Assembly: GCA_028753945.1 (NCBI GenBank)
Contig: JAPNXP010000012.1
Span: 1,984,001 to 2,048,000 of the forward strand
Length of the DNA stretch: 64,000 bases
DNA from: Hexactinellida sp. DTS-2022
Taxonomy: Eukaryota > Porifera > Hexactinellida
Direction: 5' to 3'
The translations under genes were made by a program, and so were the position numbers. Shown here one piece after another: positions 5,696 to 57,772 of this stretch (positions are counted from its first letter, which is position 1; every line of letters begins with the position of its first letter). The notes below the pieces were generated by a model that was given only the letters and a program-made list of their open reading frames with translations, was not told the origin of the DNA and made no database searches.

Positions 5696-5722
5696 CACAG
5701 TGGGCATTTAGGTGGAAATAGG
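5696..5722 (+). other. left RSS-like terminus of the 5696-6858 element
   Basis: Heptamer CACAGTG, then a 9-nt interval, then GTGGAAATAGG starting at position 17. Compare the right end (6822-6858), where the same block starts at position 27. Confidence 0.7.
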
Positions 5723-6821
5723 CTACTTTTTTGTATTCCCAAATCACTTAATCATTTCCTCCATTGAATTCACCATACTTTCAAACATAGGAATGTAAAT
5801 TTTCACTTATATCTAATAATAAAATTTGTTGTTATGGTGATGATAGCCAAAGGCATTTGAACAATAGGAATTTATTTTTGCGGTTGATCAAAACGACTAG
5901 GTTCATTGCAACATAAAATGTACACAATTAGTAAATTGATTGATTGATTTAAGTATATTTAATAACTATATACTATATAACTACATCAATTTAAATGATT
6001 GGAACTCTTTCAACATATTTTGTTTTTTGGTGCCAACTTTTTCTTATGCTTCAGTTTCGGACAAAAAAAATCATTTAAGCCGCCATCTAAAAAGTGATGA
6101 GACTTATAGTGCTGTGCCCTGCTGTGAAATCTGTATAGTTTAAAAATGTTGCTTATATACTAATATTCAAATTACGAAAGTATTTTACCCCGCACGGAGG
6201 CGCACTAACACTTTATTTTACAAATGGATATACCACTTCAGTAAATATATAGCATCACTTTCAATCGAGAAGCTCTTGAATTTCTCAAAATGCAACCTTT
6301 GTGAGAGAAGCTTCCAATCCAGTGACTTTATGGATAATGATCAATTGGGATCTGACTAATATCAAACAATTCGGTGTCAATTTGGTGAATTAAAGTTTGG
6401 CAGGGAGCTGAACTGTCGGCGAATTAGTGGAAACATACTTTTTTGCATACTCAGATGTCAATAATATTGCCAAAACTGTATTCTACTTGCTCTAAAACCT
6501 AGTAGGTGTGCAATATTCTTGTAAAAAAGTATCTAAATGCGCGAAAAGGGGCGACGTGGGTAACTTAATAACTTTGAGCCATATATATTACGATTTTTGA
6601 AATAATTACACCTTGTTCAAGAAATATAATCAATAATCATGGGTGAACAATACAAAATTTGTTAACAAACCTAAATATAATTTATGACAGAATTAACATG
6701 AATTGTCTAGAACTACGTTTAGGAGACTACGTACATCATTTGTGATGATGCCATTCAGTTTGCAGCTACCGATAACCTATATGTCAATAATACTTCATTA
6801 GAGTCTATCTAGCATAGTTTT

Positions 6822-6858
6822 CCTATTTCCACTTACACCCCTGAAAATGCCCACTGTG
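6822..6858 (-). other. right RSS-like terminus of the 5696-6858 element
   Basis: Read inward on the minus strand: CACAGTG GGCATTTTC..., with GTGGAAATAGG starting at position 27. That is 10 nt farther in than at the left end. The extra sequence is TCAGGGGTGT. Confidence 0.7.
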
Positions 6859-11475: not shown

Positions 11476-11727
11476 CTCAGAAGTAGATCTTAAAGAAGGG
11501 TTCTTAACAAGACAAAGTTCTATAAACTGATGAAATTTATAGGACCATTTCACTCTATCACTCAATTTGGGTGGATCAGCTTTAGGAATTCTGAATAAAA
11601 CTCTCATGGGATTCATTTCATGATAAGGGGGGTTCATTTCAGCTAATTCGATCATAGTAATTCCAGCAGACCAAATATCAGAGGAATAAGTGTATGGTTC
11701 ATCCTTGGATGTTTCACAGATAACAAC
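11476..11727 (-). CDS. SLK/STK10-like kinase, exon 3 (C-lobe)
   Basis: This 84-codon exon encodes residues about 199-282 of the Ste20-family kinase seen in the two exons upstream. After the APE of exon 2 it continues VVICETSKDEPYTYSSDIWS, AGITMIELAEMNPPYHEMNP, then MRVLFRIPKADPPKLSDRVK, and ends CLVKNPSLRSTSE. This covers subdomains VIII-XI: the invariant Asp of the DIWSAG helix, the PPYHEMNPMRVL helix typical of SLK/STK10, and the C-lobe Arg. The acceptor is CTTCTAG|GTT and the donor is GAG|GTAAAT, both phase 0. The next exon (kinase tail and the acidic/coiled-coil region of the family) was not found between here and position 1. It is either beyond the window or too divergent to see. Confidence 0.95.
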
Positions 11728-24640: not shown

Positions 24641-25053
24641 TTGGGTATTGAGTCAGTTTGAGTGCATACATAACAAATAAATGTAAATTCTCTCGGAGAT
24701 GGTGCAATAAACAAACCAATTTCCAAATTTATCTATTGATCCTTATGCCACGTAACACCAATCATATTGGTCTTAACACCTTGGGGTGATGATGACATCG
24801 TAAAAATATTTTCCAATTTAGTGAATTTGATATTTCGAGTGTGTTGGCCCAACATGCACAGAAAAAATGCTGAATCATCACCTACACCTTCCGAAACACC
24901 TTCCGAAACACATTTCTGAATGGTTGGCACTTCTTAGTATTGATGACGGATGAAAACATCGAAAATTACAGCTGTGCCGACTGCATGTTCTTTTTAGGAG
25001 GCTCAATCAATCAACCTACCAATAGTATAGTGTACCCAAATGAACATGGTATA

Positions 25054-25079
25054 CAGAGTGGGAAGTAATGGGAAATAGA
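25054..25079 (+). other. putative left RSS-like terminus of the RAG1-like element
   Basis: CAGAGTG heptamer-like start, GGG, and GGAAATAG beginning at position 18. About 20 of 28 aligned positions match the left end of 5696-6858. No matching target duplication is seen. Confidence 0.5.
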
Positions 25080-25658
25080 GTCAATTTGACAGTTGTTTGT
25101 ATGAATAACACCATCGTAACAAGCACATTCTAAAGCATAGTAAACCCAACGATTGATGCTAAAATAGAATTATTCAACACTTTGCTGAATTCTTATATAT
25201 TGACGTAATCCATTAATACTGTTAAATATTTGTGGTCAAATTCAACTCATGATCTATTGTTTCCTATAACTTCTTTATCATAAGAGTTATTCTTATAAGA
25301 TTTCCAGGAATTGTATACAAGGTATTCTTCTTCTTGAATACCCATAGTTCCAAAACATTTGAAATCTAATTTTATATTATTAGAACCTTCCACTTTACTT
25401 CTTAAATTCTAATTCGGACAACCTAGCCGCCCAGTATAAAGTGCATAAACTCAAAGAGGCCAGTTCTGGCCAGATAATTTGAAATTTTATGGTTATACAT
25501 TAATATATTAGGGATATTTTAAAGCAAATTCTAGGGTTCCCAAACCTTCCCAAAAATGTTACAACAATTTTAATTAGATGTGCTCGATTTTATTTATTAT
25601 TTTTGTACATTTTACACTAATGCATTTTTTTATATAATAATTAGATTTCCTTTGAATA

Positions 25659-27783
25659 ATGAATAAAAAAGAAGCATTTGAATTCCTGAATTCTCATTCT
25701 TGTATACGATAAGCTACAGAAACATTCTTATCTCAGTTCGAGGTTCCAGCAATTGATTTTCCATCAGTCCGCAGAAAGTTTCCACTCTGAAATCAGAAAG
25801 AAATGATTTCAACAGGCGTAGTGACCTTTCAACCTGGGAGGAAATGTTGTTCCATACATGCGTATACACAAACAGTCCAAAAAAACGTATCTCTGAAGGT
25901 GATATCATTTTTGAAGCTGAATTTTCGAGTGAGATGAGGAAGCTCTTGTCCGAGCTCACATTAAAGGGTTTAAGAAATCGTTTGAAACCAATTATACAGC
26001 TTAGTAAAACAGTCGCATCAAGAGAGCAAGTTGATCCTATTGATATTGTCACCTATACTCTTTGGTTGATTTCAAATGAAAATCATGATACTACAGTCTC
26101 TAATCTTTGCAAAAATCTTATTTCTCGGGGAACATTTGGTAAGAACCCCAAGGTCTCGATTTCCATTGAAAAGTCAGCTTTTCTTATTGATTTACTTGAA
26201 ATCGTAAAGAGAAGATATGCTTCTCCCCGGGATTTATGCATATCTGAAAATGTAATCTTGCATTCGTATGATAAGGTATCTATTTATCGAAACAATATAG
26301 TCCTCTCGGAAGAAATAACCTATGTACGCAACACTTCTGATATGATAATTGGCGTTTCGATATCTTATCAGAAAATTGTTCAACAGACTATTACACGTGT
26401 TTTTGAAACAAATGCCGAAGTACCTCAGTTTCATATTTCTATCAAAATTGTCGATGGTTTGGATGGATCAGGATGCCACCAAATTTATAGTCAATATAAT
26501 TCCAACGTTAATTTATCAACTAAGAATTATATCCTGTTTGCCTTTAGAGTAACATCAATTACGGATTGTAATAATAATTCTATTTATTCGAATGATAATC
26601 CCAATGCAACTTTCGGCATAAGACCAGTTGCATTGATCGCACAAAGAATGTCATAAAAGCATTAGTGAATTGATGGAAAACATTATTAATCCTGAATGCG
26701 AGGCAATGCAACAGGGTATATCTTTTCCCCATTGAACTGCTAAAGTCACTATCATTCGCAGTATGTTGATGGAAAGATGTCAGCGATTTTAAGCGGAGCA
26801 GGTGGGGCCAATTGTCAGTTGTGCACAGCTACTAGTAAAGAACTAAGAGATTTAGATCTTGTAAGGTGCCGGTTTCGAATCAACAGAACTATTTCGAGTG
26901 CTAAGGAAATAATTAGTTCTGTAGATGCAGACGAATTTTTGTCACTTCCCTCTCAGTCTCGATTCGGAATTACTCATGAACCCATCTCAGATATTGACAT
27001 CCTACCAGCCTCTCCTCTACATAGTTACACATGTATATTTCGTTGGTTCATGTTAGTGATATATCACCTTCAATCCGGCACACAAAAATGTTTGCCTACT
27101 TCTAAGAAAATTGAAGAATAGATGAAATTTACTCGAACATTCTTGGAAGAAAAAAACGGCTTTAGAATTGATCAACCAAGTAAGGATGGAGGTACAAAAT
27201 CAACAGGTAATATCGCAAGACAATGCTTTCTTAACTCCCATGATTTTATATTTTGGGTGAATTCCTTAATTCCCACTGACATGAGAGCGAAAGTTTTAGT
27301 TATTCACACCAATTTTTCTGCTATATTAAGAGTTTACAATTCCAGTCAGGAAATTAATGTCGATAATTAGAAGAGTTATGCAAAACAACATATGAAATAA
27401 TCCTCGTCAACTTTCCATGGGCCAGTATAACTCCTACCTTGCACAAACTCTTAGCACATTGTACAGAAATCATCAGAGATTGCAACAATGGACATGGATT
27501 AAAAGATTTATCAGAAGAAGGTGTTGAGTCCTGCAACAAGTTAATTAGAAGATATCGAGAACATCTTGCTAGAAAGACATCATTCTCTCACAATTCCAAG
27601 GACGTGTTCATCCGTATATTAACACAGAGCGATGCATTATTTCAGAGCTTCAGAAAAGTATTGAAATGTAAGGAATGTGGAGAGAATGGACACACTAATC
27701 GGATAAGATATAATAAGGTCTCATTACAGAACAATCTAGATGAATCTCTTGTAAATTCTCTCTTACTATCACCTAGCACCTAA
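25659..27783 (+). pseudogene. RAG1-like/Transib DDE transposase, multiply frameshifted
   Basis: The frames in order are 25659-25710, about 25762-26656, 26768-27121, 27122-27370 and 27439-27783. Key sites: GLDGSGCHQIYSQ with Asp at 26462-26464 (first catalytic Asp; compare Transib DGSSGHS and RAG1 D600), followed by LFAFRV and NPNATFGIRPVALIAQ. DGKMSAILSG has Asp at 26768 (second Asp), followed by CQLCTATSKELRD (the CxxC of the RAG1 zinc region). Then come GFRIDQPSKDGG and GNIARQCF, and finally LSEEGVESCNKLIRRYREHL with the third acidic residue, Glu, at 27526-27528. The tail CKECGENGHTNRIR fits the CCGHC pattern CX2CX3GHX4C of RAG1-like proteins except that Arg replaces the last Cys. Stops and shifts show it is not functional as it stands. 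Confidence 0.85.
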
Positions 27784-27985
27784 TAACAATTATTTAGACA
27801 TTAATAGCTATATTTTGTGGATTTATTATTGAACCACAATAATTAATAATTGGACAAAATAAATTATATCATCATAACTTGAGTAATACACATTGTACAA
27901 AAAATTGATGTGGTCAATCGATATATTATGGCCGATAACATATAAGCAAATAATACAATTAATGTATCTATCGCGCATGCAAATA

Positions 27986-28021
27986 CCTATTTCCCTTAAA
28001 ATCCCGTTTTCGCCCACTGTG
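27986..28021 (-). other. right RSS-like terminus of the RAG1-like element
   Basis: Read inward: CACAGTG GGCGAAAACGGG, with GGAAATAGG starting at position 28. This matches the spacing of the right end of 5696-6858 to within one base. CCGGG follows outside; GC-rich pentamers are usual Transib targets. Confidence 0.75.
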
Positions 28022-29100
28022 CCGGGCAAGCGTTTCAGCAAGTAGCAATTAATTCAGTTTGTATTTAATATACAGAGACAGTTTTAGTTTGTTTATGGGG
28101 AATATTCAGTGCGCTTAATTCAAAAATGTAGTTTAAAATATGTAAAATCAATAGTTGTTATGAATTATTATAGCTCTTTCAAGAAAATAAAAATAGTATA
28201 TCTAACTACACAATATAGGCACAGAGGTAATTTTAAATATTCCTATATTATATCACTTTATATATAAATGGAGCCCAATATTTTTCTCAGGCGTAAGGCC
28301 ACTGTACTGCTGAGTTGAACCCGGCCTTCAATCTAATAACCAAATTTGGTTTTAAAAGGCAGAATGAGGTTCATCTTCTCACCTTCGAAAAACTTAAGAA
28401 AAAACGGGGAGACCCATGAATATAGCATATTTATTATAATCATTAACCACCTCAATATGTTCTTCAGGTACTCGAACACCTTGGTTATTCGGACAATTAA
28501 TGTGTTGAGAGGTGAAACGGTTCGGTAACTGAAACATAAAATGTAGATGCTCGGATAATACATGATACACATTATATCTAATAATATGAAGCATAGCTGA
28601 GTAAGCCATACAATATTAAGATTCTGTAGCGAAATTTAAAAATCCTTGTGCAACTACAATATGTTTTATTTGAATACAATTCTAGTGAGATTATCACTCT
28701 TCAATTTAATCCAGGTGCATCGGTAGATGAGCCTTCAGCTGGAAGGGCACATTCGTTCCGATGCGCTTAAAAGTCCAGGTGATAATCCTGGGGGTAGCAT
28801 AAGTGATCCAAAAACTTAATATTATAGGTACAAGTAATGTCAACAGTTTCCTATCGAATGATGAAATATTGTAAATACCTTATTGGATTCATTTAGGGGA
28901 TGGCGAGGGATGGTTCCCTCCATCCCTTGCACCCCCTACCTTACAGCGTGCTTCCGCGCGCGGTCATATCCTCGCCATCCCTTATTCCTGAAAACCATAA
29001 TTTTGTCATCCCTTAAAACAAAGTCTAAATAGGAGCCTGCCTATATTGAATTGTGAAAAACATCGTTTCTGTGTCCACAACTCACAAAATATTAAGTAAA
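28022..29100. other. intron sequence; one small MITE
   Basis: No gene is seen. At about 28898-28985, GGGATGGCGAGGGATGG and its inverted counterpart CCTCGCCATCCCTT bound an 88-bp GC-rich palindromic insertion without a clear duplication. Confidence 0.5.
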
Positions 29101-29136
29101 CACCTACAAAACAATGCGAAATATACAAAGACCAAC

Positions 29137-29598
29137 CTCAGGCGCCATCCAATATGGAGTGCCTATGAAAGTATCACGCCTTGCATTGGTTTTCTTATTA
29201 ATACAGGAAACACCGAAATCAGCCAGTCTTATCGTTCCCTGTGAACATAGCAGAAGATTACCAGCTTTCAAATCTCGATGTATTATTCGATGAGAATGTA
29301 AGTAATATAGTGCTTCAAATATTTGCTTAGTAACACACACAATTTGGGGCTCGTTTAGCCCATGGTCCAATTCAATAATGATATCATCAAGAGCTCCACC
29401 AGGACAATATTCAAGGAAATACCATAGTTTATTATCGTAAAGGTAAGCTTCAAATAGATTAAGAATATATTGATGATTACAATCAGCAAGGATGTTGATT
29501 TCAATCAGAAATGTATTGAGTTCGGAATTGTCACCCAATTCAATAACTTTTGCAGCAGAAAAAACATCAGGGTCTAGTTTTGATTGAGCTTTATGGAC
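29137..29598 (-). CDS. SLK/STK10-like kinase, exon 2 (catalytic core)
   Basis: This 154-codon exon covers residues 45-198. It starts VHKAQSKLDPDVFSAAKVIE with the ATP-anchoring Lys at about 61, followed by the alpha-C Glu in FLIEINIL (about 77). The hinge is WYFLEYCPGGALDD. The catalytic loop is IIHRDLKAGNLLL (HRD at 151-153). The metal loop is LADFGVS (DFG at 171-173). The activation segment is RRDTFIGTPYWMAPE (APE at 196-198). All catalytic residues are intact, so an active enzyme is expected. The sequence is closest to the SLK/STK10 branch of Ste20 kinases, which phosphorylate ERM proteins at the cell cortex (family knowledge). Junctions: acceptor TTATTAG|GTC and donor GAG|GTTGGT, both phase 0. 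It is separated from exon 1 by about 28 kb. Confidence 0.96.
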
Positions 29599-51295: not shown

Positions 51296-52311
51296 CACTA
51301 GTATAATACTATGGTGCGGAAATGCCATCCCATAATTTACGAGTGCCGCATCTTCATGTAGGTCTAGCTACGCCTCTAATTCAGGCCATAATCTAGCCCT
51401 AAGAGGGGTACGCTCTGGGAACGCACTGCGCACCCAAATTAATTCCAATTTCAAGCATCCTTCCAGAATTTCCTTAAAATCACGCACCCCTGGGAAGCGC
51501 CGCGCACCCAGATGAAGGCCTGCTCTGATTGTGTGTGGGCTATATAATTATTCAAATCACTGTTACCCCTGATCAAATATTTCAGACAATTTTAACTGGG
51601 GTTGATATGCTCAGTGCAAAGCGAATTTGGTGTATTCGCAAATTTTCCAACAAAATGCGGCAATTAAAACTAAATTCGAATTTGCTCCAGTGTATTCGCG
51701 AATAAACCAAAGCATTGGTGTATTTGCAAATACACTGGATAATTTTCGAAAAATACAAAATTCACACTTGCACTCAGTGGTGTCCTGCTGTGGGATCGGG
51801 TGGGAGCGCGGCTCCCATAGTGTTTGTGATTGTGGGAACGCCGCTCCCTTACTAAATCAATAGCATAGAGGGTATATGGGATTTAAATCACTTTGTTATA
51901 AGCGGAATTTCGTTAATTCCATTTCGGTGTTACGAAAGTTTTAATAATGTAATATGATCAGATAGAAAATTTCCCGACCATTGAATGACTTCATTATAAG
52001 CTGGTACTTCGATATCGTTGACGGAAAGATGGTCGCGGGGAAATTTGGTCGCGGAAAAATTGTCGCGGAAAATTGGTCGCAGGGAAATTTAGTCGCTGGG
52101 AAATTTAGTCGCTGGGAAAATGGTCGCTACGAAACCATAATATTGAAGTTAATTTCCCATTCTTGATTTCACTCATTGTTATCCAAATGTCACTTGGGGT
52201 TAATTTGTTATTATCTCAACAAACACACGAGTATTCTTGACACTACACTATTTGGTTACTTAGGGAAAATTCTACAGTCAATTCACTTTTACGTTTTGAC
52301 TTGTTTCTCTA

Positions 52312-53143
52312 ATGGCCTCTGAATTACTGATTGAAAGAATCAAGAGCAACAAAAATAAAGACAAAGCCTCGCTAATGGGATATATCTATACGTTAAACCG
52401 AGTATCTGATGATATATTATACTGGGCATGTGAAAAACGCGGCACATGCAAAGCTAGAATTCATACGAGAAATGATGTGATAATCAAGCTTGTTCTAGTA
52501 TCCGAAGTTGAGCAATCCCATACGCACACCCCTTCACAGGATCGTATACAGATGTTAAAGGATTATAGAAAAATGAAAGACACAGCATCTAATTCCGAGC
52601 AGAGCACTAGAGGTATATTATCCTCTGGTTTAGAAAAAATGCATCCAAGTACTGTAAGTAAGCTACCACAATTGGAATCCGTGAAACGAACGATTCGTAA
52701 TTACAAAAGCATGAGTATCGAAAATTGTGGCAATCCCACTTGTGCAGCTGAAATTATCATCCCTGAAAAATATAAAAACTCTCTGAAAGGCGAAACCTTT
52801 TTACTGTATGATTCAGGGTTTGGGGATCAGCAAAGGATCATTATATATGGTACACTTAAATTTATTGATTTCCTAAGAAACTGTGATAGCTGGTTTTGCG
52901 ACGGAACATTTAGAGTTGTTCCTGATCTATTTACACAACTGTATACAATCCATGCAGAAAAGGATGGTGTAATTTTCCCTTGTATCTATGCACTGCTTCC
53001 AAATAAAACTGAAGCTACATATGACAGATTGTTTAAGAAATTATTAGAAATAGAGCCATCATTAAACCCTTTAAGAATTATGGTCGATTTTGAGAAGGCT
53101 GCAATTAATGCCCTGGAGGAGAATTTTATTTCTGTAATTACGG
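52312..53143 (+). pseudogene. MULE transposase, N-terminal part (FLYWCH zinc finger + first DDE Asp residues)
   Basis: The start MASELLIERIKSNKNKDKAS lies 296 bp into the element. Residues 23-72 form a FLYWCH zinc finger: GYIYTLNRVS, YWAC (C40), TCKAR (C46), SHTHTP (H70, H72). The MULE catalytic domain follows: SWFCDGTFRVVPDLFTQLY with D197, and RIMVDFEKAAINALEENF with D259. Family enzymes cut and join DNA with a DDE triad and make 8-10 bp duplications, which agrees with the 9 bp here. The frame leaves homology at about 53143, where a 1-nt slip is needed to continue. Read alone it ends at 53217. Confidence 0.93.
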
Positions 53144-53704
53144 TTTTTTCACCTCTCGCAAAATATATTCAGGCACGTTCAAGAACAAGGGTTGGCTGTA
53201 CGATATCAAGAGGATAACGATTTCGCTATTAGTATTAAGATGCTTGCCAGTTTGGCTTTTGTTCCAGAGATCGACGTTATAGACAGTTTCAAAATTTTAA
53301 TGCAACAGTTTCCAGAAGAGGCTATAGAAATAGCTAAATATTTTGAAAAAACATACATAGGTAAAGTATTACCCGATTTGACTAGAAGGGTTCCATTGTT
53401 CCCAATAAGAATTTGGAATCTTCACACGAGGGTCAACAGCCGTCTAGCCAGGACAAATAATAACGTTGAGGGTTGGCACAATGCATTCAGGTCTACAGTT
53501 GTATATTCGCATCCAAGTTTTTGCAAACTTTCTATGTTTCTTCAAAGGGAACAGTCTATGCAAGAGGCCGTTCTTGCAAAATGGGAGGGTGGAGAAGTAA
53601 AAAAAAGTTCAAAAGCTATTATCGCACGTGATAATCGCATCTTATCCCTTGTGGCCGATTACGAAAACCGTGAAACATTGGTTTTTCTGAAGGGAATTGC
53701 ATAG
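53144..53704 (+). pseudogene. MULE transposase, C-terminal part (catalytic Glu)
   Basis: It continues the MULE domain in frame 2: FFHLSQNIFRHVQEQGLAVR, YQEDNDFAISIKMLASLAFV, RVNSRLARTNNNVEGWHNAF. The Glu in NNVEGWHN (53468-53470) is the third acidic residue. The start annotated from ATG-like codons at 53192 is not the true one, since homology begins at 53144. The stop at 53702-53704 is followed by a direct repeat of TTCAACATTTATATTTAATTC units and then the right TIR. Only one slip near 53139-53144 separates it from the N-terminal part. Confidence 0.93.
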
Positions 53705-57423: not shown

Positions 57424-57640
57424 ATCAGTTAATGTATTTATGGAATTGTACAGTATAAAATTGTCTTTTTCCATAGTTAATCCAAATTTTCTATAATATT
57501 AATTGTATTGAGTAGGATGGGCGGTTTTCCGGCTAACCGTGGCGTGAAATAAAATTGGAACCGAAGCCTCAGAACGATTAACCAACCCCACCCCTGCAAA
57601 AACAATAAAAGAACACACAGTGAAGAATATAAATATTTAC

Positions 57641-57772
57641 CTTGCCAAAACTGCCATCGCCAATTTCTTTTAATAGATCCCATTTAAACAAAGGATTTAC
57701 ATCTAGAAGATGCGGTGAAATATCTTCGGCGCGAGTTTGACGAGGGCTAAATAATTTTCTAAAGAATGCCAT
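57641..57772 (-). CDS. SLK/STK10-like kinase, exon 1 (start and glycine loop)
   Basis: The ATG at 57770-57772 opens MAFFRKLFSPRQTRAEDISP, then HLLDVNPLFKWDLLKEIGDG, ending SFGK (44 codons). The MxFFRKLF start and the W-x-L-x-x-E-I-G-D-G-S-F-G-K glycine-rich ATP loop (residues 36-44) are characteristic of SLK/STK10 kinases. The donor AAG|GTAAAT is phase 0 and joins exactly to VHKAQ of exon 2, restoring GKVHKAQ. The initiator has G at +4 but no purine at -3. Upstream, CACTAG|AACCTGC could be the acceptor of a 5' UTR intron. Confidence 0.95.

Follow-up and report, generated by a model that had tools for sequence, protein, structure and literature searches.

Short and long bipartite ends of Transib transposons in a hexactinellid sponge genome, traced from a decayed intronic copy

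A stretch of 64,000 nucleotides from Hexactinellida sp. DTS-2022 (Porifera; assembly GCA_028753945.1, 112 Mb in 18 contigs; contig JAPNXP010000012.1, positions 1,984,001 to 2,048,000), hereafter the window, in whose numbering coordinates are given, was found to hold a 2968-bp decayed DNA transposon of the Transib superfamily. By its identity and anatomy, this element is very probably the remnant of an autonomous cut-and-paste Transib of the published Subgroup I type, and its relatives in the same genome carry ends in which a heptamer is followed by a second conserved block at a short distance on one side of the element and at a long distance on the other. An earlier note on the window had described a RAG1-like/Transib transposon with V(D)J-type heptamer ends; this interpretation is supported, and the second block with its short/long spacing, which the note had missed, is the more interesting part.

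Anatomy and borders of the window element

The recognizable parts of the element are listed below, L numbers denoting loci of the same genome.

25054-28021, + strand: decayed Transib transposon, very probably of Subgroup I type, 2968 bp, with ends common to other copies and with 88% identical partial copies at L010 and L011
25054-25060, + strand: 5' heptamer, reading CAGAGTG in the window copy and CACAGTG in better kept relatives
25071-25078, + strand: GGAAATAG, the second block at the 5' (short) end, 10 bp past the heptamer
25659-27783, + strand: broken transposase frames (translation, Pfam)
25925-26125, + strand: equivalent of L029 residues 90-156, which in the model look like the nonamer-binding domain (NBD) of RAG1; mapped by hand from L029
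26453-26473, + strand: DGLDGSG, its Asp at 26462-26464 aligned with the RAG1 catalytic Asp (D600 in RAG1 numbering)
26768-26782, + strand: DGKMS, with the second catalytic Asp
26813-26824, + strand: CQLC zinc pair
27511-27540, + strand: SEEGVESCNK, with the catalytic Glu
27547-27564, + strand: RRYREH (translation)
27667-27711, + strand: C-terminal zinc tail CKECGENGH..., with Tyr for the last Cys
27987-27994, - strand: GGAAATAG, the second block at the 3' (long) end, 20 bp past the heptamer
28015-28021, - strand: 3' heptamer CACAGTG (CACTGTG on the + strand)

Both borders could be fixed by comparison with copies elsewhere, whose first base falls on 25054 or a few bases from it and whose last base falls on 28021. 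On the 3' side, the BLAST alignments of L010, L012, L003, L005 and L007 end at 28021 and those of L006 and L004 extend 1 and 3 bp past it, with CACAGTG read inward from the border in all seven copies. On the 5' side, L017, L020 and L028 align from 25054 onwards, L015 and L011 from 3 and 1 bp further out, and L019, L024 and L016 from 3-5 bp inside; here CACAGTG is present in three of eight copies (L015, L020, L028), the other five reading CACAGTA, CACAATG, TGAAATG, AACAGTG and TGCAGTG. The flanks of the window copy (GTATA and CCGGG) form no matching target-site duplication, no empty site was seen when both flanks were compared with the fetched genomic loci, and an Rfam search of the window gave no match.

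The transposase frame begins at 25659 with MNKKEAF and runs into a stop at 25712, further pieces continuing to 27783. A Pfam scan covered three of these pieces and left out an 82-residue one at 27122-27370; the C-terminal piece matched RAG1 (PF12940; E 1.1e-6; score 27.5 bits, cut-off 25), and the two other scanned pieces gave no RAG1 match. Several statements of the earlier note can be judged from this copy and its relatives. It had reported three DDE (Asp, Asp, Glu) regions and the CQLC pair as kept in the broken frames, and all were located by translation; the significant RAG1/Transib similarity whose absence from a profile search it had named as counter-evidence was obtained. It had also reported a kept C-terminus: RRYREH is indeed kept, whereas the zinc tail, given there with an X4 gap, is kept only in part, as CX2CX3GH followed by the X5 spacing of near relatives and by Tyr where the last Cys is expected. 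Its placing of the element's end at CACTGTG at 28021, to be abandoned if other copies ended elsewhere, agrees with those copies, which end at the same CACTGTG. Heptamers resembling a recombination signal sequence (RSS) had been claimed for the ends, which is correct for the 3' CACAGTG and not for the 5' heptamer of this copy, CAGAGTG instead of CACAGTG.

Three observations concern related copies and flanks. L015 (1139 bp) and L028 (1422 bp) are deletion derivatives of the window copy's subfamily, with flanks matching over 4 bp (CATA and AGAT, respectively), not 5. The left flank at 24691-25053 resembles a dispersed repeat also found near the Transib copies L023, L034, L036 and L044. To the right of the element, the 60 bp at 28955-29014 recur without a difference immediately left of L051 (positions 41-100) on another contig; the L051 element has no target-site duplication, and the shared 60 bp might be captured filler or a repeat.

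Bipartite ends and their spacing

In copies with both ends known, the ends are bipartite, consisting of CACAGTG and a second block close to GGAAATAG. The block lies 10-11 bp past the heptamer upstream and 20-21 bp past it downstream in 13 of the 15 transposase-bearing copies, the other two being L040, with a 7-bp upstream spacer, and L044, without a block. A genome-wide pattern search that left 2-32 bases free between CACAGTGG and GGAAATAG, equivalent to 3-33 bp from heptamer to block, gave 517 exact matches against none for the reversed-pattern control. Spacers of 10-11 bp accounted for 235 of these and spacers of 19-21 bp for 270, with 8 at 12-18 bp and 4 elsewhere; thus 505 of the matches fall in five of the 31 allowed spacings. 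With the variant block GGGAATAG, 70 matches were obtained, each of them at a spacing of 10, 11 or 20 bp.

Ends facing each other at a distance of up to 5 kb were then considered as pairs, in a first listing drawn from the first 100 of the 517 places (contigs C1 and C2) and in a second one. Target-site duplications were assessed in 21 of the 22 pairs of the first listing: identical 5-bp flanks were found in 15 of the 21, against a background of 0.0015, and the pairs are therefore transposed units (among 20 pairs, 14 had 5 bp, one had 4 bp and five had none; the 21st had 5 bp). Most tested units (16 of 20) measure 0.97-1.66 kb and have no frame longer than 91 residues. In a separate set, a match of both 5-mers was itself the condition for accepting a copy (14 of 18 loci, or 13 without L045, where the match looked spurious), and that set is therefore no test of duplications.

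Pairing of short and long ends

Every facing pair joined a short with a long end, in 22 of 22 cases in the first listing and 20 of 20 in the second. Our tentatively preferred explanation is that a RAG1-like transposase may itself enforce short/long pairing (10-11 with 19-21 bp) without RAG2. In the mechanism proposed, the catalytic core would read the heptamer and the NBD-like segment would read the second block GGAAATAG; a dimer would work best on a short end combined with a long one, as RAG does on 12- and 23-RSSs but without RAG2, and would tolerate or demand this combination because the two spacers differ by about one helical turn; and cutting and joining would follow the nick-hairpin path known from the family.

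It is a distinct possibility that the layout instead reflects shared ancestry, all families descending from one founder with unequal ends and no functional demand acting on pairing, an explanation that competes with the pairing step only. Several points favour such descent. The families are all related to one another, 13 of the 15 transposase-bearing copies have their short end upstream, and most of the second listing belongs to a single family of ~1.8 kb. Under random pairing of the first listing, each pair would be mixed with a probability of 0.49, but the pairs are relatives of one another. Against mere descent, spacer sequences have diverged, with a mean identity of 0.34 among 12 short clusters and 0.46 among 13 long ones (77 signals found in the first 100 places, together with eleven entered by hand), yet their lengths stay at 10-11 and 19-21 bp, and the intermediate spacers of 12-18 bp are as rare as the 8 of 517 matches given above.

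Intact relatives in the same genome

A DNA search of the genome gave 43 matches, and a RAG1L protein query found 63 places at E <= 0.001, 13 of them, by hand count, in stop-free open frames of at least 690 residues. Ten loci (L029, L034-L038 and L042-L045) yielded frames of 695-751 residues, so that the intact copies for which the earlier note had proposed a genome-wide search do exist. The L029 element, for example, measures 3081 bp and has a single frame of 708 residues; the next longest frame in its 7-kb locus has 126 residues, and no RAG2-like frame is present in the element among the frames of that locus, in line with the absence of a RAG2-like partner noted earlier. Searching the genome with the RAG2 Pfam entry PF03089 gave no match, but control profiles likewise matched nowhere.

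The catalytic D, D and E are invariant in 36 aligned rows. A CCHC zinc tail (CTT1, Cx2Cx3GHxnC) occurs in 29 of the 36, with a last gap of 4 residues in 16 rows, 5 in six, 6 in four, and 2, 3 and 7 once each; among the exceptions, L038 ends before the tail and L044 is without it. The zinc region of the relatives has ~35 extra residues that are absent from the solved HzTransib and that, from their position, probably correspond to alpha11-12. Residues 90-156 of L029 have a predicted fold resembling the RAG1 NBD. All eight organism-named proteins among 50 protein matches are from Oopsacas minuta. Of the two relatives that are full-length but broken and share 68% identity with the window copy, one (L047) has AGATT on both flanks.

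Synonymous changes are saturated, against a difference at 20-39% of nonsynonymous sites in four between-subfamily comparisons, and the protein has therefore been under purifying selection. Intact frames of ~700 residues under such selection would also be expected of a domesticated RAG1-like gene serving the host, which is nevertheless a highly improbable source: copies that are nearly identical, have matching ends and lie in different target-site duplications are mobile elements, as in the L029 subfamily, where five copies are 98.6-99.5% identical and each lies in a different 5-bp duplication, and the window copy itself is broken.

L038, on contig C2, represents a second, distant Transib lineage that groups with the Hydra vulgaris protein P0088 and unnamed proteins, not with the sponge group. 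For a model of its subfamily, RAG1 and HzTransib tie by fold, and the NBD entry 3gna was not among the matches listed.

Transib or RAG1L

The broader assignment made in the earlier note, to a RAG1-like/Transib enzyme, can be narrowed to Transib. The element is filed there because it lies outside the RAG1L clade (100/100) and because its intact relatives are nearest to HzTransib among solved proteins, HzTransib being their best sequence match in the PDB. The phylogeny called for in the note sets the element apart: in unrooted trees, the RAG1L clade is closed without it, with a Shimodaira-Hasegawa-like approximate likelihood-ratio (SH-aLRT) support of 100 with 16 rows, and with support of 100/100 with 10 rows. 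The larger tree carries warnings of long branches (HzTransib, P0095, zebrafish RAG1, P0093) and of odd composition in three rows; the 100/100 tree left out HzTransib, P0093, P0095 and RAG1 together with 16 other rows. Kinship with HzTransib is not shown by the tree alone, which is unrooted and in which the long HzTransib branch may be misplaced. Two scans of genome contigs yielded no bacterial relatives for rooting, and a scan of viral contigs found no relative. Typical Transib features were observed, namely 5-bp target-site duplications, terminal inverted repeats with an RSS-like heptamer starting with CAC and a single gene without RAG2L (L029), together with those of Subgroup I, that is, the CTT1 zinc tail, the zinc-region insert and asymmetric ends.

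Membership in RAG1L (RAGL transposons) was rejected, the element lying outside that clade and the L029 element having no paired RAG2L frame. One feature is shared with RAG1L, the tail motif Cx2Cx3GHx4C, whose last gap is variable. It is unlikely that the element is a RAG1L (RAGL/ProtoRAG) member that lost RAG2L. Being unrooted, the trees are compatible with the alternative proposed in PMC7204232, in which Transib arose from RAGL by losing RAG2L. The closed RAG1L clade argues against RAG1L membership, as do two further findings: of the six Pfam entries present on most near-complete RAG1L proteins, 96 relatives carry PF26100 alone or none, and the RAG1L query reached at best 27% identity at its top-scoring genomic place, the Transib L038.

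Host gene and neighbouring features

As the earlier note had proposed, the element lies in an intron of a kinase gene, with STK10/SLK-like exons on the minus strand on both sides. These exons and a second Transib-type element are as follows.

57638-57697, - strand: probable glycine-loop exon of the STK10/SLK-like kinase (weak match, E 0.002)
29134-29598, - strand: central exon of the host kinase
11479-11727, - strand: C-lobe exon of the host kinase
5696-6858, no strand assigned: second Transib-type element, 1163 bp and non-autonomous, with spacers of 11 and 21 and a perfect target-site duplication GTTAG

For the central exon, the nearest solved structure is STK10 (E 1.2e-57), followed by SLK (2.1e-52); further kinase exons were placed with a separate query. 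The window element is antisense to the gene in the ~17.4-kb stretch between the central and C-lobe exons. The kinase introns, of ~17 kb and ~28 kb, lie in a compact 112-Mb genome, the 28-kb one depending on the weak exon match. The non-autonomous element sits about 4.6 kb past the C-lobe exon. A second type of DNA transposon is present at 52300-53704 (+ strand), where frames with a FLYWCH zinc finger and a MULE transposase domain are apparently broken by a frame change.

Comparison with known systems and significance

Transibs with unequal ends are already known. All Subgroup I members have them, and Subgroup I shares with the sponge elements the CTT1 tail, the alpha11-12 region, an NBD equivalent and the lack of RAG2L (PMC9435367); its hosts in the main text of that paper include ctenophores, Hydra, bacteria and others, the words 'sponge' and 'Porifera' being absent from it, and sponges or 10/20 spacings may already be among the ends in its figures or supplement. 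HzTransib (6PQN and others), which from PMC9435367 would belong to Subgroup II, has the same DDE core but symmetric ends (PMC8289069), and its solved chain aligns only from L029 residue 164, without the NBD-like segment, the ~35-residue zinc insert and the CCHC tail. The BbRAG1L-BbRAG2L system of ProtoRAG resembles the sponge elements in its heptamer with a distal 9-bp element, its unequal spacers (27/31), its NBD and its CTT* zinc tail, and differs in needing a RAG2L partner, in its heptamer CACTATG and in its other spacers and block (PMC8289069). RAG1/RAG2 of V(D)J recombination share the heptamer CACAGTG, the core and NBD fold and two spacer classes about one turn apart; they differ in the nonamer (ACAAAAACC against the sponge GGAAATAG), in spacing (12/23 against 10-11/19-21), in using RAG2 and in not being a mobile element. 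Transibs of Drosophila and Anopheles have 12/23 ends with a heptamer and a nonamer-like block (Kapitonov and Jurka 2005, as cited in PMC8355894), described for few families, as against hundreds of ends with another block in the sponge genome.

No description of a sponge Transib was found in the part of the literature searched, which comprised main texts. Within that scope, novelty lies in the sponge host, in the GGAAATAG block, in its 10-11/19-21 spacing classes and in the pairing seen genome-wide.

It is debated whether the 12/23 rule arose together with RAG2 or goes back to transposon ends, and asymmetric recognition may depend on vertebrate RAG2 (PMC8355894). If the enforced pairing proposed here is true, 12/23 logic would be older than RAG2, and selection would have maintained it in a non-bilaterian animal, in many families and at hundreds of ends. 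The elements offer a non-bilaterian enzyme that is RAG1-shaped and apparently free of RAG2, and a genome with hundreds of natural end pairs, many families and intact enzymes permits a direct test of the origin of the 12/23 rule.
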